NCBI GenBank assembly: GCA_963971425.1
Contig: OZ020514.1
Location: 24,602,602 to 24,666,601, forward strand
Direction: 5' to 3'
DNA length: 64,000 nt
Source: Bryoerythrophyllum caledonicum
Taxonomy: Eukaryota > Streptophyta > Bryopsida > Pottiales > Pottiaceae
Every line of letters begins with the position of its first letter. Position 1 is the first letter of the stretch. Of the stretch, positions 2,731-62,936 are shown in pieces. Below the pieces are notes generated by a model. It was not told the DNA's origin. It did not search any database and was given only the letters and a program-made list of their open reading frames with translations. A program made the translations under genes and the position numbers.

Positions 2731-3130
2731 GATCAACGGATCCTTCAATCTAAAGGGATCGATGGATCCTCCGATCTTTTGGAATTGATGGACTCATCGT
2801 TCCTCTAAGATTGATGGATCCTCCGATCGCCTAGAAATGATGGTCCCTCCGATCATCTAGGATCGATGGATCTTCCAATCGTCTTGGATCGATGGATCCT
2901 TCAATACCCCGGGTTCATCATATATCCTGACATGAGATCGATTGATCCATCGATCTCTCGCCTATGAATCCTCTTGCCCCATTCAACACTATCGGTTATG
3001 GGAATTTTTGGATCGGAGGATCCCTCGATTGTTGCAGATCGACGAGTCAATTTATCGTACCAATTTTCAATGGTGGAAGGTGAGTGATAAAGTAGAGTTT
3101 TCGAAATAATCAGGAGATCCATCGATCCCG
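2731..3130. repeat. Array of GATCGATGGATCC-type palindromes upstream of gene 1
   Basis: At least eight imperfect copies of a 20-bp palindrome centred on GGATCC (consensus GATCGAAGGATCCTTCGATC) occur here, for example near 2757, 2810, 2861, 2887, 2937, 3010 and 3113. The array ends about 100 bp before the first exon-like segment at 3227. Further single copies sit in the introns and downstream of the same gene. Confidence 0.8.
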
Positions 3131-3226
3131 TTTGGCAGTCTTGTTGAACGATGTCATAGTGCCTGGTATGTTCGTTGGTGATTATATGGATCTTAACTTT
3201 ATCGATGTGGTTCTCTAATTGTGCAG

Positions 3227-5430
3227 GGCCAACTCGATCCCGACGGATTCCGTGAACCTGGACTAGTGCCCTCTGAAGTTGTACATGGCGGTCAGTTGTG
3301 GACTCAAGAAGATTAAGTATGATGGGCCTTAAGACCCACCGTTGTTTTTCATGGTGGATAATGCCTACGAATGGGGATTGGCATGGGAGCGAGATACCGC
3401 AAAGGAGAAAGTTCGCATCGCGCCAGTTCTCCTAATAAACAACCAAGAATCGCCGGCTGGAGATCCCATATCGCTCACGACAAAGAACCTTGAGGTGCTG
3501 AACCTGGTGAAATCCGACTTCGTCAACCTGTACCTCCTTGTCATTAGTGAGTTTGTGACGAGTTCCGGATGTTCGAGGTTGTGTGGCCTTGTGATGAATT
3601 CCGCTACTTTGAGCCCCAAGTATTGTACGACGGTGAAGGATTTCAGATTCCTAATCAGGGGACGCAAGGGATGCTAGTAGCTTTTGCATCACTATTGTGT
3701 AGACAACACTCGACAAATTTTCGACCCTCTTTCACTACTCGAGGGTTCTGAACCAGGATCTTGTTGGGAATCGTAGCGAAGGTAATTACCTTAGACAGCT
3801 GGAAACTGCAAGGAAGAGCTGGAGAGATGCTGGAAGGCCAAAGCCGTCTATTCGTGGCGCACCAAACACTGTTCAGTTCAAGGTAAGTCGTCTCATTTCT
3901 CTTTTATCGCTGGAATATAGGGTCACTCTTGATTGAAGGATCTTTCGATTTGAGTTCTCTGTTTTGGATTCTGAGGCTTCGTTTCAGTGCAGACGTGGGT
4001 GGAGAAACTTGGGGCGATATTCACTAGATCAGATAAGAAGCTCAAAGTGGAACAACACGGTGGTCAGCCTAAACTTCCTCTATTGTACGAGCCCAACGCC
4101 CTCTTTGGAATGTGGAAGAGTATCCAGGATAGCTGGATTGAAGGACTGCTTCCCCACTTGTTTGGGAAGTATTCAACTTTTCCAGGCGTTGACGAGGACG
4201 ATGACGACAAGGACGACAATGTGGGAAGTTCGGCAAAGAAAAAGAGGCTGGCTGCAAAGTGATTTGCCTCTCAAGCTGTGAAGCAAAACAATTTGCAACC
4301 ATTGTACTCGATGTGGGATAGCGAGATTGAGAAATTGGCCAAGATGGTGATTGCGAAGGTGATTTTGATCAAATCAACAAAATCGCTCAAGAAGCCAGCC
4401 ATTCTTCCTGGACTCCGCAACCAGTGTCTCGTCGAGAAGAAGTTCTAGCTTCTGAAGAATGAGATGATGCACTACTTCAGACAGAAGCCCTTGCTAGCGA
4501 AGACAGTCAAGGAGTTGTATTCGGAGGAGGAGTATAATGAGCTTGCTACTAAGCTTAAGGTATCCGACAAGATACTCCAAACGTGGCATGACAGACTCTT
4601 GAAGGACGATGGTGGAGGTCAATTTTTCAAGAAGCGGGGGGCTAACTTGAACTTCTCTAGCAAGTTGGAGGACATCGTCCCATTGTTGAAGGCCTTATCT
4701 GATTAGCGGCGGACACTTAGCGGCACTGATTCAGTGGACGTGGTCGTCGAGCCGTCTTCTGGGTCCTCGTTCGTAAGCCAATACAAATCCAAGCACATGG
4801 TGACGAAATCAGGGTTGTTGAAAAGATTCTTAGGAAGGATTCTGTCCTCAAATGGATTAAATCGGATGCGACGGTTGTGTTTGTCTATTGCTTCGTCGAT
4901 CGCGAGACTTAAGGAGTTCGATGGAGTATTACAGATCAAGTGAACCAAACTGTGGGTGCTATGGAGTGGAAAGATTCATAGAGGTTCAGGAGTGCTCCAA
5001 ATCTTGAAGTTTATCACTGACCATGATGGAATGGTAGAGTTGGCAAATGTGGTGTCAGGGAGGAGCAAGCCGATTGTGCAAACACCAACCTGGGATTTTA
5101 TCTCCACAATGTATATCACGTCAGGACCAGAGGGATTTATAACTCCTCCAACTCCTGAGCCCACCTTAGGCTTGATCTTCAACTTCCTATATGGTCACAC
5201 TTCTGATACCAATGCGGAAATCAACTTCCGGTCATTTTTTGGAAATGACATGCCATACCAACATATGATATCCGCATCGGATTTTAAAGATGCTCCTACA
5301 CAGTGGGCATAGAAAGGCAGGGCCAATTTTAATATCCATGCGGTTAACCAAGTAATTTGCACACTTGGGCGGGCCAACACTGTCATTGTCAACGTCGGTA
5401 GGGGGTCTTTTGTCACTTCGGTTGGCCAAG
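3227..5430 (+). pseudogene. Composite gene 1, 5' exons (unknown domain plus possible methyltransferase motif-I region)
   Basis: The first exon-like segment starts after GTGCAG at 3226 and ends at donor AAG|GTAAGT (3882/3883). The second starts after TTTCAG at 3986 and runs to about 5430. Readable peptides include VHGGQLW near 3285, LFGMWKSIQDSW near 4105, an acidic DEDDDDKDD stretch at 4190 and ELYSEEEYNEL near 4518. Near 5325-5415 the peptide ending TVIVNVGRGSFVTS, reached after a TAG at 5311, aligns by eye with the segment of composite genes 2 and 3 that I read as amino-methyltransferase motif I. In-frame stops occur at about 4260, 4446, 4704 and 5311; the last three read naturally as CAG-to-TAG changes. 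The upstream domains are not recognised. It is probably a broken gene. Confidence 0.45.
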
Positions 5431-5552
5431 TAATATCATCGGAGGATCCTTCGATCTCCTTCTCCTTCTCCTTATGTTGCAAAATAATTTGCTGATTCAT
5501 ATGTTCTTTGCACACTCGCATTTCATTTATGGTCTCGTTTCTTTGCTCGCAG

Positions 5553-6120
5553 GCGAAAGGCGCACAAGTCATCGAGATCATCCATTCCCTGGACAATGAG
5601 AAAGATGCCCTACGTAGAGCTCTTGAAATATGGGACTCTCGATTGGTTCTTAACCATGCTGTTCCTTTACCACCTTCACCAACTTCGAAGAAGAAGAAAA
5701 CTCCGACGAAGAAGAAGGAGAGACACGTGACAATGCTAACGCGGCACTGAGAGAAGAGGAGTAAGAGGAATCTCGACTTTGATACCACCAATGCTCGGAC
5801 GGCCGGTGATGACAAAACCGACAAAGATGAAGGCCGCCATGGAGGCTCTGACTTGGGGCTGGATGCTACGTATGTGCCTTCAGAGTCCGAGGAGGAGCGC
5901 GAGGAAGAGAAGAGTGAAGAGCATGACTCGGATAGGGACTCTACCGAGTCGTCAGAAGAACATGGGGGCTAGCAAGAGATGGCCCTCGCTCAGATTCCGT
6001 GAGAGGCGGGGGAAGATGTGGAGGATGGAGATGAACAAGCCCGTCGGGTGCGCCGTGGAAGGGCTCGCCGGGTCAACAACAAAAGAGACAATGATCCCCA
6101 GTGTGCAAAGCACTAACACT
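5553..6120 (+). pseudogene. Composite gene 1, acidic middle exon
   Basis: The segment begins after the acceptor GCTCGCAG (5552) with a helical, coiled-coil-like stretch (IIHSLDNEKDALRRALEIW) and a Lys-rich KKKKTPTKKKE run. In a second frame it continues as an acidic segment (ESEEEREEEKSEEHDSD) around 5880-5960. A TAG at about 5970 and a TGA near 6000 interrupt it. The preceding intron carries one gene-1 palindrome at 5438-5455. Composite genes 2 and 3 also have acidic, disordered linkers between the methyltransferase-like and HAD parts, so this is likely the equivalent linker. Confidence 0.4.
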
Positions 6121-6271
6121 GTATGATACAATGACTACCTCCTAACTCTATCTGAACGAGACATAAAACAATTTTCTGGATGTTGTAGATAATTTTTTAA
6201 TGGACGGTAATCTCTTCATGTCTATTTCTTCGTATTCTATGTTTTCATTTCCGATATTCCTCCTTCTGCAG

Positions 6272-6325
6272 GCATTTCAAGGTGAAGATGATCGCCACAT
6301 GTGTGCATCTCCTTTGGATCCTCCG
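6272..6325 (+). pseudogene. Composite gene 1, short exon
   Basis: A 54-bp segment lies between acceptor TTCTGCAG and donor CTCCG|GTAATG. It encodes a short hydrophilic peptide (FQGEDDRHMCASPLDPP). The following intron holds two gene-1 palindromes, at 6367-6386 and 6464-6481. Confidence 0.35.
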
Positions 6326-6537
6326 GTAATGATTCACATATCACTACTTCTCAAATCGGTTAATTGGATCGGAAGATCCGTCGATCTCTTTCATTGGAGT
6401 CTTCTTTTTTTATTTATTAAATCCGCCAATGAGTCGTGACTTGGTCCTCAGTTAGATTGTATCATCGAAGGATCCTTCGATCTCCATGTGTCTCACCTAC
6501 AATTCATGTTTTATGCGGTTTGCCATCGCGGTAAATA

Positions 6538-7602
6538 GGCCATACGTTTTGCCCGATCCAGAGTTGTTTCGACTAGATTTCCACTTTCGCCCAACTTTAA
6601 TGTTTAACGACGGATTGGCGTTTGTAAATCCCGACTTGGACGATCAACTTACTGATCGTTACTCATGGGCGCAGCTTCCTGGTTCCGAATACCATACCCC
6701 TGGATCCCTCCAATCTAGGCTCTCTACTCCAGCTGCGGCGCACTATCCCAGTATTGTCCACGTCTCTCCAAGGCGAGATATCCTGCACGTCCACCATGAA
6801 GACAAAGGGCCTAAGGAGGTTGAAGAGGAGGACGAGGAGGAGGTGGAGAGGGAGGAGGATGAGCCGGAGGTGGATGTCCTTGAGGAAGATGTAAGGAGAA
6901 GAGTTGAAGCTGATGAGTGTAGGCAAAATGAGGAGGAGCAGTTGGAATAGGAGGAAGCGGAGTGGGCTGAGAGGCCTTCGTGCTCCATGTTGCCAACCCG
7001 GATTGAGCCGGAGGTGGATGACCTCGAGGAGGATGTAAGAAGAAGAACCGAAGCTGATGAGAGAAGGAAAATTGAGGAAGAGCAGTTGGAATAGGAGGAA
7101 GCAGAGTGGGCTGAGAGGCCTTGGTGCTTGCCGAAGCCAACAGTGACTAATTTTGGCAACAAGCGGGGTTCTCGAACTAGAATTACTTGTAAGATTGTAC
7201 GTAATTCTATTCCACCTGGCAATGTTGAGCCTTCCACATCCGGCCCTATAGCAATGGAGTTGGATGTAGTTGAATCCCAACCTTCCTCCAACCACGGAGT
7301 GGAGTCTGTTTCTGACCCTCCGCAAAACTTAGCAGAAACAGAGACACTGGCTGCGGCAACTTTGGCAAATCTGGTTGGCATGTTGCCACTTCTAGTTTCT
7401 CAAGGCCTTCACCAAGCTGAAACAACTTCTACGCCTATCGATACGAACGAGGAAGAGGTTCATCATGGCGTATTCCAAGATGCTAGCGAAGATCTTTTAG
7501 CCTTCAACCCCCCTAGATTCATTCCAAGGTCGTCTACAGCTCATGTTGGTGGAATGGGTGAATCATCCGCTCCTCATATTGGTTTGACATCCTCTACAAA
7601 AG
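6538..7602 (+). pseudogene. Composite gene 1, coiled-coil exon with internal duplication
   Basis: One frame is open across about 1 kb apart from two TAG codons (6948-6950 and 7092-7094), ending at donor AAAAG|GTGAGT (7602/7603). It encodes a proline/aromatic stretch (VLPDPELFRLDF), then a Glu/Arg-rich coiled coil, then a Ser/Thr-rich linker. The coiled-coil part is a direct duplication of about 140 bp (about 6855-6998 and 7000-7133). Both copies carry the same QLE-stop-EEAEW junction, so the stop probably arose before the duplication. Large minus-strand frames over this region are Ser/Pro-rich shadows. Confidence 0.5.
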
Positions 7603-7725
7603 GTGAGTTTCATATCCGTTTTTCTACTTCACTATCTTCAGTTCCTCATATATATATGACTTGCTCGAAGGATCCTCCGATCGCCATGCGCCTCACTCAT
7701 GCTTACATGTTTGCTTAACCGTAGG

Positions 7726-8420
7726 AGTAGTATGAGGAGATACTAGGCCTGCATCCCCCCGCGATTCAAAGGTAAGGCAACCGAGGTACACTGTTGTCCT
7801 CGACTTGAATGGATTTTTGATTTATAGGACTTCTCCGCCGCGCAGTAGTATTCCTAGACCCGACTGTCGTCTCTTTCGAGAGTGGTTGCACAAACTCGCT
7901 AATATTGTGATATAGAGCTGTGCGATGAAGATGAATGTCGATAGCATGTTAGTTGATGCCCTGAGGAACTCTATCCTGAAGCCAGCTCACCTTTTAGTTC
8001 TGTCCCAAGCTGATACTACAATGTCAACCTTTCCTAGAAAGGAGAATCCATCCAAGCGTTACATGCTGAAGGACCTTAGGAAATTTGCTCTGCTTCATGA
8101 TCACGTGGAGATTGATCTCACGTTGCTCATAGACGACAGTCCAGAGAAGAACCTCCTCAATGGCGAGTTCAATGCTATACATCCTTGTCCTTAGACTGGT
8201 GATTTGAAGGACAGGGTTCTTGCTACACGCCTGATGCCTTGGCTGACGAAAATGTTTTCGTCACGCATCCATGTAGCAGAAATTGTTTAGAACAATCCCC
8301 TCCATGAATGTCAGAACGGTTGTACGTTGAGGACGACTGATCTTTCTAGGAATATTATAACAAGGTGCTCTCGGAAGTGGAATCCCTCAATCCCAGGATT
8401 TCAATGACACTTCAGTCTCA
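7726..8420 (+). pseudogene. Composite gene 1, first FCP1-like HAD phosphatase domain
   Basis: HAD-type phosphatases of the FCP1/NLI-interacting family remove phosphate from proteins through an Asp nucleophile in a DxDx motif. Here VVLDLNGFLIY (about 7790-7820) is motif I with the second Asp replaced by Asn. A TAG in VI*SCAMK occupies the motif II region, where paralogues read VVWSSM, so Trp was probably lost. LTLLIDDSPEKNLLNGEFNAI (about 8118-8180) is the acidic motif III with its Asp pair, followed by the typical Phe-Asn-Ala-Ile strand. The family call is fairly firm; activity is doubtful because of stops. The intron before it carries a gene-1 palindrome at 7663-7683. Confidence 0.65.
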
Positions 8421-8649
8421 TTGATGACGTAAATATTTTTTATATTTTTTGAAGATATTTTTGTAGCCTTTAAGGATGTTCTGTTCATTTACAAAACAAC
8501 CACTATGTTTATCTCCGTTGTTTTATTTCCTAATTTGCCCCCTTTAATTATCACATTCACGTGTCTTTATTCGTCGCTCGTTGTTTTTCTGGATGATCGA
8601 AGGATCCGTCGATATTATTTATAACCTCTCGATCTTTTGTCATGTTCAC

Positions 8650-9240
8650 AGCTATTACACAACCAAAAGAAAGTTATTGTATTGTCCCTCAATAGAGTCC
8701 TTTGTTTCAAAAAATACGATTACTGTACCCTACAATTGTAGTTTGTCCTGGTTTCCTAGAGTTCTTCAGGATCCTTCTGAAGTCCTTTCATGTCGATATC
8801 TGGTCTCCATGATTCCGTTGTGCCTGAAGAAGGTTCTTGATGTTATCCTCCCCGAAGATATTAGGACTCGACTTCTTTTTGTCTATGGCCGGAACAAGTG
8901 CTCAAGGCCACATCTTTATCCTATCTGCGACAAGGTCCTCCGGAGATTATCAACTGATCGGAAAACTAAGACTTTTTGTCTCCCTGACAGAGTATTGATG
9001 GTTGATGACTAGCCAATGTGGCATGTCTTCAACGGAGACTTTGCTTGCTACTTTCCAAAGCCATGGCGTGGTGAAATAGCCCTCGCCAATGCCCGCAACA
9101 TTATACCTAACATTGGAACGGCCTTGCTTCCGTTCATTCTTCCCCTACGAGCTTCTAGCTTGGTGAAGGCATATTTTTGTGCACATGAGATGGATGGAAA
9201 GTTTAGACGAAGACTGCTTGAACCATGGCACTTTGAGTGA
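8650..9240 (+). pseudogene. Composite gene 1, second HAD-like region lacking motif I Asp
   Basis: After an acceptor TTCACAG near 8649 one frame runs to TGA at 9238, interrupted only by TAG at 9010-9012. The segment VLDVILPEDIRTRLLFVYGR (about 8827-8890) and RVLMVDD*PMWHVFNGDF (about 8990-9040) match the second half of a HAD domain, including the V-D-D acidic motif. The N-terminal part where DxDx should lie (LLYCPSIESF, about 8672) has no Asp pair. So gene 1 appears to encode two HAD units in tandem, the second a likely non-catalytic copy. The intron before it carries a palindrome at 8595-8613. Confidence 0.5.
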
Positions 9241-9535
9241 GTATGGCGTACTTTATAAATGGTTCCTAGATTAAATAGGTACTCCTCCATCTTTCTTATC
9301 AGTACTTGTCATTGAGTTATTTATATGAATAAAGCATCAAACGAGTTTCATCATATTCTTCCTATTAACTTGAGTGTATAATAGTTGAAAGATCCCTCGA
9401 TGTGACTTGGATTACTTCAAACGATTTTTTGAACACATTTCTCATTAGAGGCATTGTTTCTCATTGAACTTCAATAACAGTTAATTCTCAACAGAGTGTA
9501 TAACAGTCGGGAGATCCTTCAATGTGACTTGTATT
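9241..9535. repeat. Gene-1 downstream region, repeat split by the CACTA element
   Basis: A segment of about 85 bp at 9412-9497 (starting TTACTTCAAACGATTTTTTG) recurs at 14742-14826, directly beyond the CACTA element. Two more gene-1 palindromes lie at 9384-9401 and 9506-9523. Confidence 0.6.
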
Positions 9536-9989
9536 CACTATAAGAAAACCGTGTTTTAGGTGGCGTCAAGCTTGCAACGTGTTGTGCTTTCTGAGATGTC
9601 AGACGTTTGTCGGACAAAGGCCGCAGTATCTGAATTTTTTTTTGACGTTGCATGAAACGTGTTCATGTTAAAGGCAAAATGTGCAGATGTCATTGTAGAC
9701 AGACACGTTTTGGAGGACGTCAGTAACAAAGTGGTCACGTCTGACCCTCTGAGTGCAACGTCATAGAAAATGCAGGAGGTCCACGTTAGCCACTGCATTC
9801 ATTTCACTGTGGGATGACTGCAGACCGCTGCCCAAAAGTAAAACACTTGAGCAAAATAGGCAGCTCTTCTACATAGATAGGCAAAACTTGTTTGTATGGA
9901 AACATTGGCTTTGCTTACACGGGATAAATTATTCTGATGGACTTACAGGAACACATAAAACTAAAAATTTATTAGTGGCTCAACTTAGA

Positions 9990-12240
9990 TGCACATGTTA
10001 CATTATACATATATTTAGTATACATGACATTTTTAAGTTGATAAAATATGGGATTATTTGCTCATTAATTTATATTGGATCACACAACATGCATGTTAAT
10101 ATAGCAGTTCTAGTCATTCATTCTTTAAATTCATTTTTTCATAAGAATGAATTCAAAAAATGATAAATGTTTAGGTGGTCTTGGGTTGTTAAAAATTATA
10201 AAAGTGGAAAAAAGAAATGAGGAAGGTGTAAGTGGTCTTGTGGTGTTTCAAATTCTCAGAGTAATTAACATAAATTGAGAATGGACAAACTATTGTAAGT
10301 TTTCTCAGTCGCTCTAGAAATTTTCTTAATTTTCTTAGTCGCTCTTTAAATTTTTTGTCTAATTTTCAAATTTTTAAAACAACCCAACAACTCTAAATCT
10401 TACCCATTTTTTTTAATCCACTCTTTTCAATTATTCTAAAGCCAAAGACTACTTTCATCTTTCCCATTTTCTTAGTTGCTCTTGAAATTTTTATAACAGT
10501 AGTTTTTAAAACTCACAAGAATTGATAAATTTATTAGAAAAGGCATCGTAGGTTTTCTTTGGGTACGTGTTTACAAGTTACAATATTTAAAAGAGTGGGT
10601 ACAAAAATGAACCAAGTGGCAATGGGTCTTGGAGTGTTCTATACATAAATTGAGTGATTAAAGACAATGGAAAGGTGAAAGTGGTCTTTGGATATCTTAA
10701 AACTCACAAAAATAAATAAATTCAGTTAGGTAAGATATAAATTGTCTTCTCGATAAATTATTTAATTCACTTACAGGAACACTTGAAACTAAAAATTATG
10801 CTAATGGCTCAACTAAAATGCACATCTTACATATATTTTGTATACATAATATTTTTAAGTTAATTAAATATGGGATTATTTGCTCATTAATTTAAATAAT
10901 ATCATAGAGCATGCTTGTTAATATAGTAGTTCTTGTAATTCATTCTTTAAATTCATGAATTTAGTGGCAAATGTTTGAGTGGTTGTTAAAAAATTGCAAT
11001 AGTGGGGGAAAAAATGAAGAACGTGAAAGTGGACTTTAAGTTTAGGAAAACTAAAAAGAGTGTTTAAAAAAAAATGGGTATGGTTTAAACTTTAGAGGTG
11101 TTGGGTTGTTTTAAAATTTGATGACAAACATAAATGACAGCCTACTACCTTAAAAAAAATAAATTTAAAATGGAATGAATGATTTGGCCTTGGGCTTCTC
11201 TGAAAATTGCAAGACTGAATGAAAAAAAAATGGAGAATGAATAAGTAGTCTTTGGTTTAGGAAAAGCTCAAAAGATTGAATAAAAATCAAAAGAAATGGT
11301 TGAATTGGTCATCAAGTGTTTCTTACATCTGAAGATTGTAAAAAAAATAAAAATGTGTAAGTGCTTATTGGGTGTTTTTTTAAATACAAATCCATTGAAG
11401 AAATATTTGAGAAACGTAGAAGTGCTCTTCATATGTTTGGAAACTTGGAAGGTTAAAAAAAGTAAAATGGGAATGCATGAGTGGTCTTGGGTAGTTAGAG
11501 AAATTGCAAGAGTGACTAGAAAAAATTGGGAAATTAAACAATGGACTTCTATTTAGTCAAAACTAAAAAGAGTGAATATAAAAAATAGAAAATGGGTGAA
11601 GTGATCTTGAAGGGTTTCAAAGATTTGAATATTGAATTTTTTTTGAAAATGTGCTAGTGTTTTTTGGGTCTTTTAAATTGCCCCAATTTTGAAGATAAAA
11701 ATGGGAAAACTTAAGGTTGTCTTAGGGGGTTTTAGGAGTGAATTAATAAGACACGAAAGGTTGAAGTGGTCTCGGTTGAAATGCTTCTTGATTGTCTTAC
11801 AAGTGAAAAGACTGAAAAAAATGGAAAAACTTGAAGTGCTCTTTTGATGTTTGGAAACTTAGAAGGTTAAAAACAACATAATGCACATGGATGAAGTGGT
11901 CTTGAACTATTATCAAATTTGCAAGACCGAATGACAAAAATTGGGAAATTGTCAAGTGGTTTACCGTTTACGCAAAACTCAAAAAAATGAATAAAAAAAA
12001 TGGGAAATGGTTGAATTGCTCATGGGTTTAGGCATAAGTCTCAATATTACATAAAAAAAGGGAAAGTGTGTAAATGCTCATTGGGTGTTTTAAAGCTAAA
12101 AACATTGAATAAAAAAAGGCAAAGGTTGCAAGAAAAATGGGATGTTTGTAAAGTTGAAATAGTAAATGCAAAAGTTCTACATGAGTGTACTTAATCAAGG
12201 AACATATTTTGCACTTCCTTATCACATTGTTTATTTTCTT
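9990..12240. repeat. Degenerate AT-rich tandem repeats inside the CACTA element
   Basis: Units built from words such as AGTGGTCTTGGGTTGTT, AAATTGCAAGAGTGAATAAAA and AAAATGGGAAATGGTTGAA recur irregularly with spacing near 60-110 bp. Short open frames here (for example 11296-11556 and 12028-12252) are low in complexity and follow the repeat, so no gene is called. Confidence 0.6.
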
Positions 12241-12594
12241 TGGCCTAGCCACTTCTTCGTAGTTTTCCTTTTCAATACAAACATTTCAAAATGCTGATGA
12301 ATAGAGTTGTGTATATTCTTCAATTACAGATTGGATAAATTTAAAATAGATTCAAAGAGCGGCCAAGGATGCAACGACTTGAAGAGAATAGATAACCACA
12401 CATGTTGTATTAATGGCTTCCCTACATTGCAAAATACACCATAATCAATAATATTCAAATCATTCACTTACAACTTGAAGTTTGTCAACTACAATTGCCG
12501 TTACAATTGCCATCGTTTAAGACTAGACATCATCGAAGACGACACCAAATATGTGTATGTAAATGTCACTACAAACATGGAGTATCCAGAATGA

Positions 12595-44065: not shown

Positions 44066-44086
44066 GCGAGGCCACGATTTTTCATT

Positions 44087-46620: not shown

Positions 46621-46621
46621 A

Positions 46622-50400: not shown

Positions 50401-50412
50401 TCACTCTACGAA

Positions 50413-50760: not shown

Positions 50761-50859
50761 CCAGCATTCCAATGAGATAAATATTAGATAATCCTTCCAA
50801 TTAGTATGGGTGAATACCTTGTAGGAATGGACATCAATGAAGAAGCATATGAAGAGAGT

Positions 50860-53325: not shown

Positions 53326-53327
53326 GT

Positions 53328-53545
53328 AGAGGTGTGCCCCATCACTACGTGCAATCAACTAAAAGGAGTGTGTGCACACACATTAGCTCCAGTAGTGCTA
53401 ACGTGTGCCCCATGACTAGGTGCAGTGAACTAAAAATAAAATACGCACAATTTAGCTCTAGTAGAGCTAAATTGTGCACCATCACTAAATGGAGTGGATT
53501 AGAAAGCAAAAATGCAATATGTAGCTCCAATACACACAAGACGGC
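53328..53545. repeat. 64-bp repeat with TTAGCTC palindromes, second locus
   Basis: Three units carry cores ATTAGCTC...GTGCTAAC, ATTTAGCTC...GAGCTAAAT and a decayed third, each followed by GTGC(A/C)CCATCACTA and GTGCAGTGAACTAAAA-like sequence. The unit is shared with 36758-36945 and 55135-55275. Confidence 0.75.
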
Positions 53546-54645
53546 TCCTAGTGTAGTGGACACTAAATAGGAATCCATACAATAACTGTAAAATTTACAA
53601 TAAGTGTAGTGACTAATCTATATTACACTAAATGTCAACTACTACACTAAATGTTAATCCTAGTAAATAGTGGAACATAAAGTTTTTTACTTGTGGACAG
53701 TTACTGTATGAAACCTTAATAATGATTTGATTACTTCTTGAGCATCAAAGTAAAGAAGGGTTGAGTGCATGTAGAAAAACAAGTATTTGCAAGAGAGAGC
53801 TTGGGAATAATAGGACGTAGGTATGGAGCAAAAGGAAAATCTCAAAAATTGGACAAAGTAGAATGTAAAATATGGAAGGAAAATGAAACTACAAGTAGAA
53901 GATTGGAAATATAAGAACATTCTTTTGGAAACGAAAGTGAGAAAATAAAGGAATATTGGAAAAGGAAAAAACTTAAACATACAATAAATATAGAAATACA
54001 AGTAAAATACTCATTAGACATCCATCACATATGCATTCAATGTGCATTACATATTCAGTAAATATTCATTAAATATTCATTGAATATTCAAATACACATT
54101 GATTTTAGATTCGGAATTATGCAAATATTCATTAACGATTCATTTGCAATACATTAAATACTCTATAAATAATTATTAAATATACAAATATTAATAAAAC
54201 TATCATAAAATATACTTTTATACCTCTAAATATTCATTAAATAATATTTAAATATTCTTTAATTGTTCATAAAAGTTACAATTATACAAATATACATTAA
54301 ATATTCTATAAAAATTCATTACAAAGTCATTAGTTATTGGCTAAATATATGATTATACATTAAATATTCATTTGATATTCCTTAATAATGTAAAAGGAAT
54401 CTCCTACGATGAGAATAGTTGTGAATAAGACGATAAGAATTTGAGGTTGAAGATGAGATAAGAAGAATAAATGCATGGCGACCGGTAGGCAGAAGATGTT
54501 AAGCTAACTCTATTTATCAAGTAACAAATTTGTGTGCTAGAGTAGGGTTTTGATTGAGGGCTAATACAAAATGAAGTGCAATAGATGAACGAATGAGGGA
54601 TAATATTCATGACAATGGCGGCTAAAACTAATTGCCAACTTGTTG
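53546..54645. repeat. AT-rich spacer with AAATATTCATT repeats
   Basis: From about 54020 to 54390 the word AAATATTCATT and relatives recur with irregular 10-25 bp spacing. The minus-strand frame at 53687-54001 is Phe/Tyr/Leu-rich from AT composition and is not called. Confidence 0.55.
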
Positions 54646-55079
54646 ACAAATAGTGTACTAGAAGAAGAGCTTCTCCACCGGGGCAGAGGGTCCGGGAGAA
54701 ATGCCGGAATGCAGGAATAAACACAGAAAAGCCCACTCCGCGAGGCCCAGGCAGGTGTCTCGGCCCACCGAGGTGGCGGCGCCGGTTCTTGTGAATAGTA
54801 AATTTACAAAAAATACTGGGGCCACCAAAATTCCCCGGGAGCATGTATCCAATCATGTAATGACACGAGGAAATTAAAAAAAACAATAAAAACCTAAAAA
54901 AAATTGGCCAACTACGGAGTCAGCGCCAAGCGCTAGCGTTCCCCCAGGGTAGCTAATTTGGGGATGGGTGCGGGAGGGGAAGGGTAATTCCATTCCCGTC
55001 ATCTCAAACTTAGGCACCTCTTCCGCTGGCATGAAAAATTTTCCGTTAGGGGTGGAGATGCTCTAACTACACTATTTGT
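54646..55079. mobile_element. MITE-like element with inverted ends
   Basis: The left end CAAATAGTGTACTAG... is followed by AGAGCTTCTCCACC, and the right end read on the other strand is CAAATAGTGTAGTT followed by AGAGCATCTCCACC. Two matching blocks thus face each other over 434 bp. The interior is distinctly GC-richer than the flanks and has no gene. GAGCATCTCCA-type ends are common in small plant DNA elements. No clear target duplication could be fixed, since the first block may itself be part of the flank. Confidence 0.55.
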
Positions 55080-55134
55080 ACAGTTACACTAAAAGCAAAT
55101 ATACTAAAGTTTAACATACTAAAGAAAAATGAAG

Positions 55135-55275
55135 TGAAATAAAAAGATAAAATTCACACTTCAGCTCAATTAGAGCTAAAGTGTGCACCATCACTGAATG
55201 TAGGGAACTAAAAAGAAAATATGCACACTTTAGTTCCAATAGAGCTAAAGTGTGCATCAACATTTATTTTAAAAT
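55135..55275. repeat. 64-bp repeat with TTAGCTC palindromes, third locus
   Basis: Two units with cores CACTTCAGCTC...GAGCTAAAGTG and CACTTTAGTTC...GAGCTAAAGTG are separated by GCACCATCACTGAATGTAGG and AACTAAAAAGAAAATATG. Each arm change keeps most of the pairing. Confidence 0.75.
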
Positions 55276-55924
55276 TATACTACTACAAGATGTGGTCTTA
55301 ACATACTTATCGTTTGTTCGATTCTCATAGTAAAAAATATCAAACTCGCAAAAAAGGAAAATTGGAATTCAAAGTAATAGAATCTTAAATCGTATTGTTA
55401 GAACTATTTTAAATGTGCTTCACCCTTCTCCAACACCTAATAATTGGTATAGGAGGAGCTTATATATAGCAATGGTAATGAATTTACACCTTGTATAATG
55501 CAGAAATTGAAATTGTGTCAAGTGAAAGCCAGCTGATCCACTCAAAGCATGAAAGAAAACCAAACACTTTAATCTTGTTTTCAACACTAAACACATGAGT
55601 CGTTCACGTCCGTGCAATCAAAGTTTGTGTATTATGAAGAATATGTCAATATACAAGTCTTAATTGAGATCATACGGTTGAAATTGGAAATATTTTATTT
55701 TCTTTGACTCCCGAACATTGCCTCAGAATATACAAATTTGTAGTGTTTTAGGCTCAGAGAAATTCTCTTGGAAACTTACAAGAAGAGATTTTGTAAACGC
55801 ATATAATACTAAAATTACAAGAAACTTTAACTTTTGTTAAAAACAAAATGGAAACTATGCAAAAAGCACGAAATCAAACTAAACATCGAAAAGTAAAAAG
55901 GTCAAAGAATGGTGGTGCATCCAC

Positions 55925-56015
55925 CGTAATACCCAAGGGTATTACCCCGATATCTGAGGGAGCATCCCGAGGGTATTGCGACGACCCCGAGGGTATCCTG
56001 AGGGTACCACGCGGC
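55925..56015. repeat. CCGAGGGTAT palindromic words
   Basis: A near-perfect 20-bp palindrome GTAATACCCAAGGGTATTAC at about 55926 is followed by three CC(G/T)GAGGGTA words. It is a further palindrome type not seen elsewhere in the window. Confidence 0.5.
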
Positions 56016-56089
56016 TATAGGAGCTGTACTCACGGCTTAGGGTTTGGACATCTTCGTGTACACCCTGGAATTGGGCCAAGAGCTAGCTT

Positions 56090-56235
56090 TTTCTCTCTCT
56101 CCTTTTCGTGTTCGTATTCGTATTCGTGTTCTTCTTTGTGTTCGTGTTGGTATTCGTCTTCGTGTTTGTCTTGCGCTCGTGCTCGTATTGCGATCGTGTT
56201 CATCTTGCGCTCGTGCTGGTGTTGCGCTTTTGTTC
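56090..56235 (+). repeat. TTCGTG/TTCGTATTCGTG microsatellite, possible leader
   Basis: A CT-rich start (TTTTTCTCTCTCTCC) is followed by imperfect 6-bp units TTCGTG/TTCGTA and then GCGCTCGTGCTCGTATTGCG. Frames across it are low in complexity. Located 2.3 kb upstream of composite gene 3, it could be part of a 5' leader. Confidence 0.5.
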
Positions 56236-56239
56236 GCGT

Positions 56240-57205
56240 AGAGTTTGCTGAGTTTGTGTTAGTAGGAGCGCTTTTGTTTTGAGTATGTGTTAGGGTTTGT
56301 TGAGCACGTTCTCTAAAACGTGTAGGCTTAGATTTTTCGCGGATAGGGTTTGTAGGAAGTGAGGGTTAGTATTGTGTGAGGTTTCAAGCACGTAGAGATA
56401 GAAACGCGTGAAGCTGTGAAGTATTGATGTGAAATTTGAACGAGGAGGAAGAACAAGAAGCTAAGGAAGATTTTCGATAATTAATGGTATGTGTAGAGAT
56501 CCCTTTCTTCTACAATTGTTTCATGGTTTTTATGGTTTGGTGAATTTATGTTTGATGTTTCGTGCTTTCTGGTTTTATGTTTGGTGAATTTATGGTGTTT
56601 GGTGTTTGGTGTTTGCTGTGATTGAATGTTTCCTATTTTTTTCTTCAGGTATTTGATTTGTCTGCATGGCTCTTAGTTTCTGTTTGTATTGAAATACGTT
56701 GTGAGTGCGTGTATTGATTGTTGTCTTGTGGAATTGGTGCTATTTTTTGTCGTAGTGTTGATACTAGTTCGGTTTTTAAAAAAAAATTGGTTTCAATGTG
56801 CTTCTTTCAATGAGTTGCTTTGTGTTCAATGTGCTGCTTTCGATGTGTTAAATGTTGAACGTGTTGAAACGTTCAATGTATTGAATGTTCAATGTGCTGC
56901 TTTCTATTTAGGTTTCTTTGTGGTTCTGCATTCTGTTTGCTTCTATGTGGTTGTATTTTTCTGTGTGCATGTTGTTTTTTTTTGGTTTTGGGATAGAGTT
57001 ATTGGTTGATTGATTGTGTGTGTGGGTTTGTTATTGTTCTTGCAGGACGTCTAGTTCCAGCAAAATATTACTGGAATTAAAGTTCATAATCAATGGCTAA
57101 AAAATAAAAACCATACCCTCACCTAGGAGCCCTAAACTCTACGGCTTGAAAATCATATGACGGAAGACAAATCTGCACAAACTGTAATAAATCAGCATTT
57201 CAGTC
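56240..57205. other. GT-rich spacer upstream of composite gene 3
   Basis: TGTTCAATGTGCTGCTTTC and TTTGGTGTTTGGTG words repeat loosely. The plus-strand frame 56689-57009 is Val/Phe/Cys-rich from composition. Possible splice-like sites (TTCTTCAG|GTATTTG near 56648) might belong to a spliced leader, which I cannot confirm. Confidence 0.35.
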
Positions 57206-57208
57206 AAC

Positions 57209-57660
57209 ACATTTTAGCTCGAGCCGAGCTAAAGTGTGGCCAATAGCGGACACTGTTGGCTCCACTTTAGCTCGAGCCGAGCTAAAGTGAGGCCAATGGA
57301 AGACACTGTTGGCTCTACTTTAGCTCGAGTCGAGCTAAAGTGCGGCCAATAGAGCACACTGTTGGCTCCACTTTAGCTCGACTCGAGCTAAAGTGCGGCC
57401 AATAGTGCACACTGCTGGCTCCACTTTAGCTCGACTCAAGCTAAAGTGCGGCCAATAGAGCACACTGTTAGCTCCACTTTAGCTCCAGTCAAGATAAAGT
57501 GCGGACAAAGATGCATTAGACCAGTACACTTTTGCTCAAGTAGAGCTAAAATGTACAGGTTCAGTGCATCTCTTTTCGCACTTTAGCTCGACTCGAGCTA
57601 AAATGTATGATCTGAATGCGTCTATGGTCGCGCTAAAGCCCGACTCGAGCTAAAGTGATG
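57209..57660. repeat. 53-bp tandem array of TTAGCTCGACTCGAGCTAA palindromes
   Basis: About nine units, the first six with a strict 53-bp period: a 27-bp palindrome (arms CACTTTAGCTCGA and TCGAGCTAAAGTG) and a 26-bp linker (CGGCCAATAGAGCACACTGT...). The linkers resemble one another, so this is a satellite and not a CRISPR array. Further single palindromes at 58083-58108 and 58404-58428 lie between the array and the first exon of composite gene 3. Confidence 0.9.
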
Positions 57661-57829
57661 ATATTATCTACTTTCAAACCATGTCTCTCGAAAAAAAAAT
57701 CTTTCTATTCATCAAAGCCAACACACTTAACCTCAAATCGAGCTACAGTGTAAAACAAAAGATCTAAACCACAACTCAAACACCACTACTTTCGGACCTA
57801 AAAACATGCCAGAAGTTAAACTTACTGAT

Positions 57830-58430
57830 GATATCCATGGCACAACTGAAGTCTACTTCTCGTTCACCTCTCAAAAATTGTACATGAGCTTTAGTCCGGC
57901 TCCAACCACTTGAGAACCTCAAAGAGAGAGGTTCGTGAGTGATTGGATTGGTTTGTAAGCTTTTTCACAGTTTCGGGAGTTGAACAAGAAGTAGGCATGA
58001 ATTGAATAAAAGGGTCTAGGAAAGCCTTCCAAAGGAATATTTAATGTTGCAGAGCTGTAATGACATACATTGTATTTGATAACACTTTAGCTCGAGTCGA
58101 GCTAAAGCTAAAGCATTAGCTTGAATACAACAATGTTACCATCGTGTAATTGCAGTCTAGTATCTCAACTCATGTCTATTTCTCGTTCAACTTTCTGAAT
58201 CGTGAATGAGCTTCAGTCCCGTTCCAACCACTTGTGAACCTCAAAGCTTGAGGTTCGTGAGTGACTAGATCGGTTCGTAAGCTTTTCCACGGTTGTGGGA
58301 GTTGAACAAAAAGTAGGCATGAATTGATTGAATGGGTCTAGGGAAGATTTCCAAATGACTATATTTTGTTGCAGAGTATTATTGACATACTTTGTATTTG
58401 GTTACACTTTAGCTCGAGTCAAGCAAAAGG
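57830..58430. repeat. ~330-bp direct repeat upstream of composite gene 3
   Basis: The block from about 57850 (TCTACTTCTCGTTCA) through TTTAGTCCGGCTCCAACCACTTG, GTTCGTGAGTGATTGGATTGGTTCGTAAGC and TTGAACAAGAAGTAGGCATG to the palindrome at 58083 is repeated from about 58174 to 58428. It indicates a local duplication of the promoter-proximal region including its palindrome. Confidence 0.7.
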
Positions 58431-58518
58431 GTAACCTCTCCATCTTAATTGGATGATCAATTTAGCAATCTAATATTTGTGCTCGGTTTCGTGTGTGTGC
58501 ACAACTGAGAGGGACAGG

Positions 58519-59945
58519 ATGGTGACTCAGCTGCAGCACTCCTTCCAGCAAAAGCCCGTCGACCTTGATGATGTCGATGGAGACGACAACAACCACTTGG
58601 ATTGTTGGGAGCTCAAGGACCCATCAATGACATTGAAGTTGACGCTTCTGTGGGCCACCTATACGGATAATCTAGTGTTTGGTCAGACCTTCGCCGGTGA
58701 TATTGTTGAACCCCAACACATCGACTTCACGACCAAAAATACTGATGTAGTCCACGAAGATAACGAGCACGTTAAGTTGTCGTGTGTGACAACCACTGAG
58801 TCTGTAGAGCCTTATATGTATATTATTGTAGTGAACAATGTTTCATCTCCCTTCTGTATCCGCGATTTAGTCGATTTGGTTAGGCCGTCCAAATTTGATG
58901 AAATAGTGGCGCAGGTCGACCACGAAATCTCACTAAAGAAATGGGAGACTAGTAGTGGTCAGCCGCTGAAAGCAAAGGCTATAGCGAATAAACTCCGCGT
59001 CTATCTATCGAGAATGAATACCTTTGCCGCTCTAGAGAAGGCAAAGACAATCGAAGAGAGGCGCCCGATAGAAATTTAGATAGTTTCGGGGGCTGTGACC
59101 GGGAGCCAGGAGTTGAGTCACGCGTCGGTACCGGTTTGAACAACTGGCGCAAGAACAAGTCGAAGCACCTTGCGCAAAACGTTGTCTGCTTCCCCCGTCA
59201 AAAAGCCCTCAGCTGCCAAGAAGCCGGAGACCTCTTCTAGGAAGAAGACGAAGCTCGTATCAGAGGAGGAGTTGGCCAATTCGATGGCCTCTGCAATCTC
59301 AGAGCTCCCTCAGGCGCTCGGGTATGGAGAGAGAATCAACTATAGCAACATCCAAGAGATTTACCAAAAATTTTGGACGGAGTGTCAGAGCTGCTTCGTC
59401 CTCGGAGACAGAGAGAAGAAGTTTGAGCTCAACGTGATGAGGCTGCATAATGCACCGCTGGAGTGGACGATCCGTGCTTTCGAACCTTGGGGCATGGAGG
59501 AGTTGATGCATTATTACATCAAAATGCCCGACAAGACGCAAAAGTAGACTCTCTGTGTCATGACTAAGCTGGATGTTATGCCAACAAAGGTTGAGGACCT
59601 CAACGACTGCGACTACTATATCATCAACGACCACCATAGCGTTGCAACATCAAAGGCGTTGATAAACGGCAACGTCCCGGAGATAATGAGAAAGCACTTC
59701 CGAACATGGTAGTGTTACATTGTCTGGACAGAGGATCCGGAGAAGCTGAGGAAGATGTCCACGTATTATAATCGCGTAAATCACTTGGTCCAATTCAAGC
59801 CGACGTGGGCAATGTCCTCGACTCTCGGGCTTTGTGGATCCAAGCTGGGAGACCAGTGCCGAAGCACTCCGCCGTGGGCATTTGCAGATCTCACAGGTTA
59901 GGTCAAAGAACTGCACTGGAGATTGCCAATGACAAGAAGTTTGAG
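58519..59945 (+). pseudogene. Composite gene 3, first exon (unknown N-terminal region)
   Basis: From ATG 58519 (MVTQLQHSFQQKPVDLDDVD) one frame is readable for about 1.3 kb with four stops: TAG 59077, TGA 59137, TAG 59545 and TAG 59710, each one transition from Gln or Arg. Peptides include LTLLWATYTDNLVFGQTF, YMYIIVVNNVSSPFCIRDLV, a Lys/Ser-rich linker (SPVKKPSAAKKPETSSRKKT), FWTECQSCFVLGDREKKFEL and FEPWGMEELMHYYIKMPDKT. A frame change near 59850 then gives TALEIANDKKFE up to the donor GAG|GTAATA (59945). The phase of that donor matches the next exon. The region with YIIVVNNV could be a BAH-like beta fold, but I would not rely on that. Confidence 0.5.
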
Positions 59946-60173
59946 GTAATATATCTTAACCAAGGTCATGCACGTTAGCTCGACTCGAGCTAAAGTGCAT
60001 GTTTACTCACTATCTGTGTAGTATTGTATATAGATTGAAATCGCTTATATTGTATACTCTCATGTTGCAAGTTAGCTTGACTCGAGCTAACTTGCAGTTT
60101 TCGGACCCTGCTGGTCATGTTTATTTTCTACTCTAATGATAATCTGATTCGACCCTGTTTATGTTTTGCGCAG
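59946..60173 (+). other. Composite gene 3 intron 1 with two palindromes
   Basis: The intron runs from GTAATATATC to TTTGCGCAG. It holds two palindromes, 59969-59999 (arms TGCACGTTAG and CTAAAGTGCA) and 60066-60096 (arms TGCAAGTTAG and CTAACTTGCA). The second pairs over nearly its entire 31 bp. Confidence 0.75.
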
Positions 60174-61541
60174 CCATTTCTTAACGGGGTTTGTGAGCGC
60201 TTTGCAATGATGGACGTTGCAAAGAGCCAAGCAGTGCTCCAGAAAGCCAGAAAGGCGAAGGAGCTCTTGGTTACGAACGAGGTAAAGATCATCACCGCGA
60301 CTGATGAGACCTTCAAGCTCTGGTCGGATGTCATTCCTTCGGCGGCACGGGGCGACCTCATCAACGTCGATTCGACTTCGACGCCCTTGGCAAAGTTCAA
60401 GGACGCCAAGTCTTGGATCTTGGAGAAGGATGGAGTGTTGACGCGCGAGTTCTTCAAGTTTTTCGACAACATGACCGAGGCCGATCATGCAAAAATTTGT
60501 AAGCACATACTCAATCGATCAAGCCCATCGCGAAGACTGCCTTACCCTATGGTGGTTGTGAAGCAGCCAAATTTTGTGCTGGAGGATTGCTACACCGCCC
60601 GGGACTAGGTCGATCGGAGGAAGAGGAAGGAGGTCGCTCGAATGGAGCTACAAGTGATAAGGCTCAAGCTAGGCCTCTTCAACAGTGCTAGAGCGTTCAA
60701 TCGGGCCAACTGACAGAAGTTCAAGAAAGACTACAACGTCAGCAAGGCCTCAAAGCGTGCCCTCTTGGATTGGGATCCACCGGATTCGTACTACGCCAAC
60801 TCGAGGCAGACACAGTTTCGCAACTACAAATGTGAAGTTCTCTCTCCATATGCTAAAGAGTTCTTCAGAGTCTTCCTCGATGTGCGGTCGCAGTACGTTC
60901 CACCACAGGAGGCCTTGCACTTTTGTTCGTACAAGGCGGCGACAAATTTGCTCGGGACGTGGCCCCTGGATTCGTGGTCCAACGAAGGCTGTAACATAGA
61001 GCTCGGCATCATCGACTTTCTGAACATCTCTGATTTATCTAGGAAGGCAAAGTCGTTCTTGGAGAAGCCCTTCTTCGAAGAGTTCATGACGATGTTTGCA
61101 TCAAAAGTGCAGCCTCCCCTCACTGATCTTTCAGCCTGGCTCTTCATTTGCGGCGATGAGCGGTCCCAACTTCAAGTGATGGCGTTTGCAGAGGGGCCGT
61201 CGTTGTGCCATGCATATAATGTGCTGCAACCGAAGTATCTTTCCTTCGAGAACTAGCGCTTGGGGGGATTCGCCCTAAAGAGTAACAATGCTCTCGACCC
61301 TATTGGCCTCCTCTTTTTCTTCAAGAAAGAGCTCATGCAGATCCTGGCTGTGAGGAAGACCTACGCAGCTCCGGAGCATGTGTTGCACATCAAGCTTCGC
61401 AAGTACAACGGGCTAGCGTACTCCATGAACATAAACAAGTTGAGGATGGCGTTCTTCATCAAGGTCCTGGAATTGTTTTGCAAGAGGGGGGAGGCAATTG
61501 TCCAACTGTTTAACGGGACAAAATTACTAACGGCGAGTGTG
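60174..61541 (+). pseudogene. Composite gene 3, methyltransferase-like exon
   Basis: One frame spans the whole exon with three nonsense codons (TAG 60606, TGA 60711, TAG 61254). The first two face Trp codons in composite gene 2. Key parts are ETFKLWSDVIPSAARGDLIN, FVLEDCYTARD, HVRSQYVPPQ-like VRSQYVPPQEALHFCS, IELGIIDFLN, AWLFICGDERSQLQ, NQRLGGFALKSNNALDPIG, LLFFFKKELMQILAV and KLRMAFFIKVLELFCK. It ends VQLFNGTKLLTAS at donor GTG|GTAAGT. I read IELGIIDF as the motif IV strand and VQLFNGTK as motif I of a permuted amino-methyltransferase, by comparison with the ParB-methyltransferase gene. The catalytic DPPY-type residues are not evident. Homology with gene 2 is certain; the methyltransferase reading is moderate. 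Confidence 0.55.
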
Positions 61542-61825
61542 GTAAGTTTCCCTGTAGTTTAGCTCAAGTTGAGCTAAACTATAGATCCCTTCTTGTCTCG
61601 TGCATGGATTATTTCAAAGAGGTTGTCCTTATGTTATTTGTAGCATAGCACTTTAGTTCGAGTCGAGCTAACTTGGCAGCCTTGACTTATATTCTTTTCT
61701 AGCAGTCATCAATCGCGTCGTATCCTTTCAAGATTTAATAAATGTGTTTTCGTATCACTATTATTTTGCATTCACTTTAGCTCGATTCGACCTAAAGTGT
61801 AACTTCTCTAATCCATTGGTGTGCA
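61542..61825 (+). other. Composite gene 3 intron 2 with three palindromes
   Basis: After the donor at 61542 the palindromes lie at 61552-61584 (arms CTGTAGTTTAG and CTAAACTATAG), 61650-61676 and 61773-61800. The 3' border is unclear: no standard AG stands just before HILDLEAFNIF, and GGAG at about 61841 is the nearest. Confidence 0.65.
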
Positions 61826-62730
61826 CATTTTGGATCTGGAGGCATTCAACATCTTCCACGACAGCTATGAGCGAGACCTCGACGACGCCGTAGAGGTCGC
61901 GTTGACGTTGGATTGGGCCAATTTTGTCATTGGTGCATATCACGTCATTGGGGAGATCTTTCCTAAGCTTGGCATGGCCGTTGCCAAGGGGAAGGAGAAA
62001 ACAAGTATTGACCTCGTCGATGTGGACCCGAGCCCCCTGGGTGTGTGCCCGAGCTCGAGCAGGCCACTCTGGATGATGAATTGCATGAGGACTTTGATGA
62101 TGCCACTTTGCCGGAGTTTGAGAGTGGCTCTCAATATGAAGCGGAAGACACAATCGGTACCTCACGGCAGCGACTCGAGTTCCCGGAGTGAGATGCGCTG
62201 GATATCTCCGAGAGGCCTCATTCAGCTCCGACCTTGAGCAGGTCATCCGCTTAGCCCGCGGCCAAGAAGAAGAAGGTCGCAAGTGCAAGCGGCCGCTCTC
62301 CATTGGCTACAGCGAGTAGCGCTCAGGACGACACCAGGTTGATCACCCTCCAGAAGAAGCTCTAAGAGGAGGCCACCCATCGGAGGTTAATGGAGTAGCG
62401 GCTGGCAGAGCGTGACGAGGAGCTAAGGAGCCAGCAGCGGAGGCGAGACGAAGAGATGACGAGGAACCAAGAGTAGAGACATGTCGATATGATGCTCTTA
62501 CTGGAGAGATTGATGGCGGCTAAGGTGCCTGCTATCGCCACAACACCACCTCCAATTAAAGTTGCGATGTCCCAGCCTCCCCTCTCAGCGGAAGAGGGGA
62601 CTGGAAGTCTGTCCCGCAGCTCACTGCTGCCGTCTCCGGCACGTTCCTCCGCCGTCGAACCGCCCCTTTTTCCCTCCGAAGTCGCCCGCTCGGGACGTAT
62701 TTGTCGCAGATGTTCCCAGCTCATCGTTAG
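61826..62730 (+). pseudogene. Composite gene 3, linker and coiled-coil exon
   Basis: The exon opens ILDLEAFNIFHDSYERDLDD, a plausible motif II and following helix of the methyltransferase-like domain, then LTLDWANFVIGAYHVIGEIF. An acidic linker changes frame near 62040. A coiled coil around 62290-62520 (RLAERDEELRSQQRRRDEEM) is crossed by TAG 62252, TAA 62363, TAG 62396 and TAG 62474. Each of the last three falls where Gln would suit the heptads. A Pro/Ser-rich end leads to the donor TAG|GTTAGT (62730). Confidence 0.45.
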
Positions 62731-62936
62731 GTTAGTGTAACGAAGTTGCGAGTGTAAGAGGCAGAATATTTTGTAAATGTCCAATTTTATATTCCAGTTT
62801 TTTTGTAAATATTACAGTGCTCAGCAAGCACTTCAGTTTGACCCGAGCTAAACTGCTTGACATCCGGCGACTATGACTTGTATCGTTGTCTTGTGTGTGC
62901 ATCTGTTGATAGGTTGAAGTTGTTGAATTTTTTCAG
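62731..62936 (+). other. Composite gene 3 intron 3 with one palindrome
   Basis: Bounded by GTTAGTGTAA and GAATTTTTTCAG, it contains a palindrome at 62829-62857 (arms AGCACTTCAGTTT and GAGCTAAACTGCT, with changes). Confidence 0.6.

Follow-up and report, generated by a model that had tools for sequence, protein, structure and literature searches.

TnpA, a protein encoded by En/Spm, binds repeated subterminal 12-bp motifs of the transposon that encodes it, and is reported to lower methylation. For the VANDAL transposons of Arabidopsis, Hosaka et al. (2017, PMC5735166) describe the motif YAGTATTAY for VANC21 and AGTTGTMC for VANC6, both situated in non-coding parts and in tandem repeats, and a VANC protein that varies faster than the VANA transposase; anti-silencing by VANDAL/VANC is also treated in PMC10398659. 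In fungal DNA transposons, TET/JBP dioxygenases represent an accessory gene tied to methylation (PMC12730594). Here we analyse a stretch of 64,000 nucleotides from the moss Bryoerythrophyllum caledonicum (C1:24602602–24666601 of a 437-Mb assembly; hereafter the window), in which several genes are accompanied by dense sets of palindromes of four types, F1–F4. Among the elements fetched for comparison, these palindromes are private to transposon families. We think it probable, without great assurance, that they serve large DNA transposons as family-specific cis signals, in a VANC-like self-recognition built on palindromes.

Imperfect palindromes with 10-bp arms number 293 in the window, compared with 122–153 in five shuffles. 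As the original prediction had held, all four types are real, each lying well over the mean of 30 shuffles of the window: F1, GATCGAAGGATCCTTCGATC (13 sites versus 0.23; ≤5 mismatches); F2, TTATCCTCGNNNCGAGGATAA (5 versus 0.17; ≤4 mismatches); F3, TTTAGCTCGANTCGAGCTAAA (36 versus 0.23; ≤5 mismatches); and F4, GGTGCCGCTAGCGGCACC (6 versus 0.50; ≤5 mismatches). The exact F1 and F4 strings it quoted have no occurrence in the window, where only near-consensus copies are present. Genome searches, at ≤2 mismatches for F1–F4, F6 and F1b, were controlled with the reversed pattern, a fair control because reversing a palindrome yields another palindrome of equal composition. Matches numbered 299 for F1 (2 reversed), 5,211 for F2 (4), 12,832 for F3 (1), 401 for F4 (13), 84 for F5, an imperfect palindrome (0), and 403 for F6 (0). 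The sister types F1b and F3b gave 1,256 (0) and, as exact matches, 674 (0); F1/F1b and F3/F3b are two positions apart, so that sister counts at ≤2 mismatches overlap and the F3 count includes the 674 exact F3b matches. Scatter irrespective of gene was not seen in the F3 loci sampled, which were the first in the list, all on contig C1, and which overlap to represent about nine places: 14 of the 15 lie wholly or partly in F3-element sequence, with 1,615 to 3,021 of 3,021 bases covered. The fifteenth, L021, is located inside an F3b cluster (C1:6239530–6240085).

Family specificity was assessed by best match at ≤4 mismatches. Copies A and B, the two fetched F3 elements, contain 28 and 31 F3 sites, respectively, each with one further site tied between F3 and F3b; neither element contains another motif, a single F4-like match with four mismatches in the copy B stretch falling outside it. 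The fetched F2 element has 19 F2 sites and no other motif, and the F1 element of the window has 17 F1 sites plus one F4-like match with three mismatches. The fetched F1, F2 and F3 elements each hold ~17 to 32 copies of one palindrome. Two elements with sister palindromes, L044 and L046, gave nine F1b sites and 13 F3b sites, respectively, the latter with three ties and one F3 site. The original prediction had the palindrome follow the gene copy independently of ancestry. It correctly noted that the same intron carries different palindromes in F2 and F3 genes (33615/33716 versus 61558–61776), but the palindrome goes with the transposon family: F3 is found in both of the close copies g2a and gene 3, at one and the same intron place. 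The idea of 'gene copy, not ancestry' was rejected, since each of the two fetched F3 elements has F3 sites (29 and 32) but no F1 or F2 site.

Elements of F1–F3 have a common layout, comprising a DUF7869-type gene and a divergently oriented accessory gene that ends in a NIF/FCP1-like phosphatase domain. The palindromes precede both genes and occupy introns, and those of F3 also occur in the stretch that separates the two genes; the claim that divergent gene families each have a palindrome of their own, present both in introns and in an array on the promoter side, is borne out. Terminal repeats and target duplications were examined in the F3 copies. Copy A is 19.7 kb long, has 29-bp terminal inverted repeats (93%), and encodes the DUF7869 gene (8e-31) at one end and the NIF gene at the other, reading apart. 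Target duplications are 4 bp in length (CCTA for copy A, TATG for copy B), with an imperfect pair, ATGT/ATAT, for the window copy. This 4-bp duplication is the only feature that would fit the Sola superfamily. The fetched F2 element, whose ends are not defined, shares this layout; one of its open frames, of 613 aa, matches DUF7869 (8e-44), and it has a NIF domain (PF03031, E 1e-6). For F1, a homolog of the F2-element DUF7869 gene lies ~9.4–11.3 kb left of the window (tblastn). We call the DUF7869 gene the putative transposase because it is placed between the terminal repeats and is widespread (150 scored of 3,607 first-look candidates). A search for NIF, with 150 scored of 1,885 candidates, returned many near-identical open frames of 281–284 aa. 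Between F2 and F3, the putative transposases are 50.5% identical over 531 aa in copy B and 35–56% in pieces of copy A, and the accessory proteins 39–42% over 99 aa or more in NIF and 24–27% in exB, with no match for exA at E 1e-3. The accessory protein diverges faster than the transposase, as is the case for VANC and VANA.

In two pairs of sister families, most sites show a matched base change that affects the two half-sites alike. These came from three further NIF genes picked without knowledge of their motif, for which no prediction had been written down; two, L044 and L046, proved to be transposon-type and to carry symmetrically altered F1 and F3, respectively, at most sites. L044 is 40.7% identical to gene 1 over 481 aa (NIF, 56% over 167 aa). 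Its palindrome F1b, GATCGTAGGATCCTACGATC, departs from F1 at position 6 (A>T) and position 15 (T>A), GATCG[A>T]AGGATCCT[T>A]CGATC; the change is present at 9 of 10 and 10 of 10 L044 sites, respectively. Position 6 reads A12/G5 at the 17 sites of the window F1 element and T9/A1 at the 10 of L044, and position 15 reads T13/C4 versus A10. L046 resembles gene 3 in exA (33%) and NIF (47%) and has almost no DNA similarity to copies A and B. Its palindrome F3b, TTCAGCTCGACTCGAGCTGAA, departs from F3 at position 3 (T>C) and position 19 (A>G), TT[T>C]AGCTCGANTCGAGCT[A>G]AA, each change occurring at 14 of 17 sites. Positions 3 and 19 read T28 and A26/G1/T1 at 28 copy A sites, compared with C14/T3 and G14/A2/T1 at the 17 of L046. 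The third NIF gene (C9:17188195; 24% identical, not transposon-type) has no palindromes. Yet another F1-like palindrome, the third, was observed at C1:15815437–15815611 and 19468604–19468952; its sequence, GATCGAAAGATCTTTCGATC, again has a symmetric change, its sites are spaced at 174 bp, and it may mark a further sister family.

Turning to the explanation, of the roles suggested in the original prediction we favour a site bound by a putative protein of the same family. An element-encoded protein would bind each palindrome as a symmetric dimer, the fast-evolving accessory protein being the most likely candidate and the transposase a less likely one. Dense binding over the element would keep it unsilenced or switch its genes on, an effect confined to the family concerned and comparable to that of VANC on VANDAL. 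Protein and site would co-evolve, splitting families into lineages that do not cross-recognise. As speculation, the phosphatase domain might be the effector, acting for example on the polymerase II tail. A fuller version, which we advance only tentatively, is that this is a second, independently evolved self/non-self system of plant-type transposons, in which the phosphatase-domain accessory protein of each DUF7869 element would read a dimeric palindrome found on its own family alone, license the copies so marked against host silencing and speciate by matched changes in the protein and in the two half-sites.

The position of the sites bears on an alternative in which the palindromes are binding sites of the element's transposase, used in assembling the transposition complex. 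Copy A does have F3 sites ~0.7 kb or less from either end (3770; 22247, 22319), motif divergence between families parallels that of transposases, and the F2 DUF7869 protein gives a weak helix-turn-helix match (HTH_7, E 0.018, under the cut-off). However, internal sites predominate (in copy A, 26 of the 29, at 4.4–17.7 kb of an element spanning 3.2–22.9 kb) and are massed before both genes and in the introns of the accessory gene, and we consider this alternative rather unlikely. With coding stretches drawn from open reading frames (ORFs) and homology, none of the 29 copy A sites is in coding sequence (35% coding, P 4e-6; 0 of 19 with arrays merged, P 3e-4), nor is any of nine in L044 (56% coding, P 7e-4); the F2 element has 2 of 19 (34% coding, P 0.02). 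Introns are thus favoured by the palindromes but not required: g2b, the F2 accessory-gene fragment in the window, and the fetched F2 element each have two sites in an open frame. These sites (32118 and 32307 in the window; 2473 and 2671 in L030, the fetched F2 element) are apparent counterparts within a coding stretch in two copies, where the palindromes translate to peptides resembling SYPRVEDN.

The flanks of the sites raise a second alternative, that structure and not sequence matters: the palindromes would form hairpins in intron and leader RNA, or cruciforms in the DNA, and so influence splicing, small RNAs or silencing. Flanks outside the F3 core differ among sites yet are self-complementary: in 24 representatives with unrelated flanks, 71 of 144 pairs are matched over the first six positions, versus 53.3 permuted, and 0 of 2,000 permutations were as high. 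F4 flanks behave similarly (17 of 24 paired versus 13.0, P 0.011; P 0.01–0.06 over 5–6 sites), as do, weakly, those of F2 over the first four positions (29 of 72 versus 21.3, P 0.026), and many L046 sites are extended to TGCATA..TATGCA. Against a structural role, F2 symmetry fades as positions are added (P 0.07 for six, 0.21 for eight), F1 flanks have no symmetry (13 of 56 paired versus 16.3), a hairpin needs no single sequence throughout a family, and sites between and beyond the genes are left unexplained; we regard it as unlikely. The flank symmetry could reflect either a binding protein or structure that reaches past the core, or template-switch repair that keeps the arms matched. The latter process belongs to a third alternative, in which the palindromes are a passive by-product without function: tandem duplication and gene conversion would spread them within an element, and template-switch repair would preserve their symmetry. 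Fixed-spacing tandem arrays and symmetric flanks would fit such a mutational process, which is nonetheless improbable in light of the near-absence from coding sequence, the family-specific change shared between arrays and separate introns, and the recurrence in F1–F3 and, by counts and arrays, in F5 and F6. That host transcription or silencing factors bind each palindrome would suit arrays that precede promoters, but is very improbable for eight motif types including sisters, which have 0–4 reversed matches except for F4 (13) and, where tested, are family-private in the fetched elements, a pattern that a set of host factors is not expected to match.

Several observations weigh against recognition of the palindromes by an element-encoded protein. 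The VANC21 motif YAGTATTAY is non-palindromic (PMC5735166), and Pfam and PDB scans recognised no DNA-binding domain in the accessory protein. Site-variable symmetric flanks are not predicted by simple protein binding. Within coding sequence, a very weak tenth L044 site (7346) lies in the NIF exon, making 1 of 10 if counted, and L046 sites 3447, 3492 and 4967 lie in open frames, which we read as through-intron frames and left uncounted. Finally, eight upstream stretches of further DUF7869 genes were examined under the advance prediction of one own palindrome per family, which held in part: a strong own array was found in two of eight, a weak shared palindrome in four and none in two. Of the two strong cases, L041 has 27 sites of GTGAGGCATATGCCTCAC at ≤5 mismatches (0.10 in shuffles), grouped into two arrays that separate a 507-aa open frame of uncertain kinship from a transposase exon-1 homolog (E 3.5e-4), and L036 has seven matches to GGGGTCGAGGCCTCGACCCC (0.02 in shuffles), five with ≤1 mismatch, including two pairs in a repeated segment. 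F5 arrays lie ~1.7–4.7 kb upstream of four DUF7869 matches (C1:3212543, the source of L041; C2:37927589; C6:25133894; C9:7522974). L037, L039, L040 and L042 share a palindrome that is not family-private (5, 5, 5 and 3 matches versus 0.36–0.56 shuffled), and L038 and L043 have 1 and 0 palindrome matches. Used on its own, the cluster-size score also picked out a control stretch of low complexity (W38000–44000, 10 matches). The palindrome shared by the four stretches is near CATCATGCTTAACATGATG and is spaced at ~350 bp in L039 and L040.

Table 1. Features of the window (coordinates in the 64,000-nucleotide stretch).
Feature	Position	Strand	Details
F1 promoter-side array of gene 1	2731..3030	+	mostly 26-bp spacing; seven sites ≤4 mismatches; 2783, 3108 poorer
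Gene 1, decayed accessory gene of F1 element	3228..9240	+	splice borders by eye
F1 sites of gene 1	3931, 5437, 6367, 6463, 7663, 8595	+	between coding stretches
NIF (PF03031) domain of gene 1	7767..8290	+	Pfam E 7.9e-10, read-through fragment
Two weak F1-like sites	9383..9524	+	tandem unit, 3' side of gene 1
Nested CACTA-like element	9536..14740	.	ends CACTATAAGAAAA/TTTTCTTATAGTG; 3-bp target duplication ATT
F4 sites in and before methyltransferase-like gene (15.4–19.3 kb, -)	18036..20652	-	18036, 18128, 18254, 19827, 20635
F4 site, neighbouring transposase-like gene	26811..26828	+	2 mismatches
g2b, F2-element fragment (accessory gene)	30200..34650	-	F2 sites 33716, 33615, 32307, 32118, 30539
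g2a, fragment of another F3-type accessory gene	35029..36216	-	F3 site 36188 in intron
F3 element	36233..64000	+	left terminal inverted repeat at 36233; right end beyond window, C1:24668124; aligned to copy A
DUF7869-type gene remains, F3 element	46135..50757	-	exon 1 50431–50757; exon 2 start 46135–46419; tblastn with F2 homolog
F3 array directly before DUF7869-type gene	50862..51304	-	47-bp spacing from 51096
F3 variant sites between the two genes	53382..55249	.	
F3 array before accessory gene	57213..57747	+	53-bp spacing initially
Gene 3, F3-element accessory gene	58519..64000	+	exA 58519–59943, exB 60174–61541, NIF from ~63383; borders by eye
F3 intron sites of gene 3	59974, 60071, 61558, 61652, 61776, 62832	+	

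The features of the window are collected in Table 1. Coordinates originally given for the sites of gene 1 were accurate to ≤1 base, those at 9384 and 9506 being weak copies beyond the five-mismatch limit. A 144-bp coding tandem duplication at 6860–7141 of gene 1 has a TAG in each unit. The CACTA-like element is outside the palindrome system; it is inserted within the tandem units on the 3' side of gene 1.

What had been described as a single gene 2 comprises two separate insertions, the gene-3-like fragment g2a (35.0–36.2 kb, F3) and the divergent copy g2b (30.2–34.6 kb, F2). Of the five F2 sites, 32118 and 32307 are in an open reading frame and not in an intron. Fragment g2b shares 64–67% aa identity with the fetched F2 element in the exB pieces and 57% in the NIF part, its own NIF match being weak (E 0.069, under the Pfam cut-off). 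Direct repeats at 29345–29581 and 34610–34846, 85% identical, flank this fragment. Fragment g2a is 69% identical to gene 3 at the aa level, with dN/dS 0.385 over 354 codons (five with stops excluded), a value that we read as suggesting earlier selection followed by decay. The NIF domain of gene 3 (PF03031) matches at E 5.5e-17 on a read-through fragment. The promoter-side array and intron sites foreseen for gene 3 were found, together with additional F3 sites at 36.6–36.9, 50.9–51.3 and 53.4–55.2 kb. The window F3 element is broken up by other DNA at ~37.6–46.1 and 46.6–50.4 kb, within which a protein-kinase-like ORF is located (45280–45720; PF00069, 4.2e-9).

F4 may represent a similar arrangement in another transposon type. 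An F4 site is present both in the methyltransferase-like gene and in its neighbour, as had been claimed, but the names ParB and MULE given to the two genes are without hidden Markov model (HMM) support: the F4 gene fragment had no ParB match in Pfam or PHROGs, and the fragments of the neighbour scanned gave no Pfam support for a MULE. The F4 gene matches a methyltransferase PHROG (E 4.5e-5) and, under the cut-off, Pfam N6_N4_Mtase (0.012). Pieces of accessory exA, several of them decayed, likewise had no ParB match in Pfam, PHROGs or PDB, and a short GQHxVAA-like string, which we take to resemble the ParB motif, is the only remaining hint. Elsewhere, exact F4 occurs at three places in two regions (L006–L008), within other copies of the F4 gene (76–87% DNA identity) and between its aligned parts. 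One protein scan of a viral collection found no relative, and the F3 palindrome has 0 matches there; five single F4 matches in this collection were taken as chance, and a viral link was rejected.

To our knowledge, VANC is the only sequence-specific transposon anti-silencing system with shown target–protein co-evolution. Were the self-recognition proposed here true, it would be a second case, with another transposon type and another protein, and private recognition codes would be a general escape strategy; many transposon families would run private gene-control codes in one genome. F1/F1b, F3/F3b, the long-open-exon relatives L044 and L046 and thousands of sites make co-evolution directly testable, and the pairs of protein and site could form a set of orthogonal DNA-binding partners.

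Among the literature matches listed on VANDAL/VANC, anti-silencing, palindromes in mosses, ParB in bryophytes, moss DNA transposons (12 of 111), Sola, DUF7869 and NIF/FCP1 in transposons, no description of the present palindrome system was found. The TET/JBP case is enzymatic, and the opening of its abstract mentions no family-specific palindromes (PMC12730594). Unlike the subterminal motifs of En/Spm TnpA, the palindromes are massed before both genes and in introns, in another type of transposon. Several features also differ from VANDAL/VANC. The motif is a palindrome of ~18–24 bp with symmetric co-change; the accessory gene has a NIF phosphatase domain (PF03031), and Pfam scans of fragments gave no match to DUF1985 or DUF287 at E ≤ 1; and the putative transposase is DUF7869 and not a MULE (VANA), with a 4-bp target duplication. 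Because neither DUF1985/DUF287 nor a MULE transposase was found, we do not regard F1–F3 as members of VANDAL/VANC; they appear to work like this system yet to stand outside it. The statement of the original prediction that no described element class behaves in this way does not hold, since VANDAL/VANC does so (PMC5735166). In both, short, dense, family-specific motifs, often in tandem, occur in introns, in upstream regions and in intergenic parts; the motif differs between related families, here F1/F1b and F3/F3b; and the accessory protein evolves faster than the transposase.

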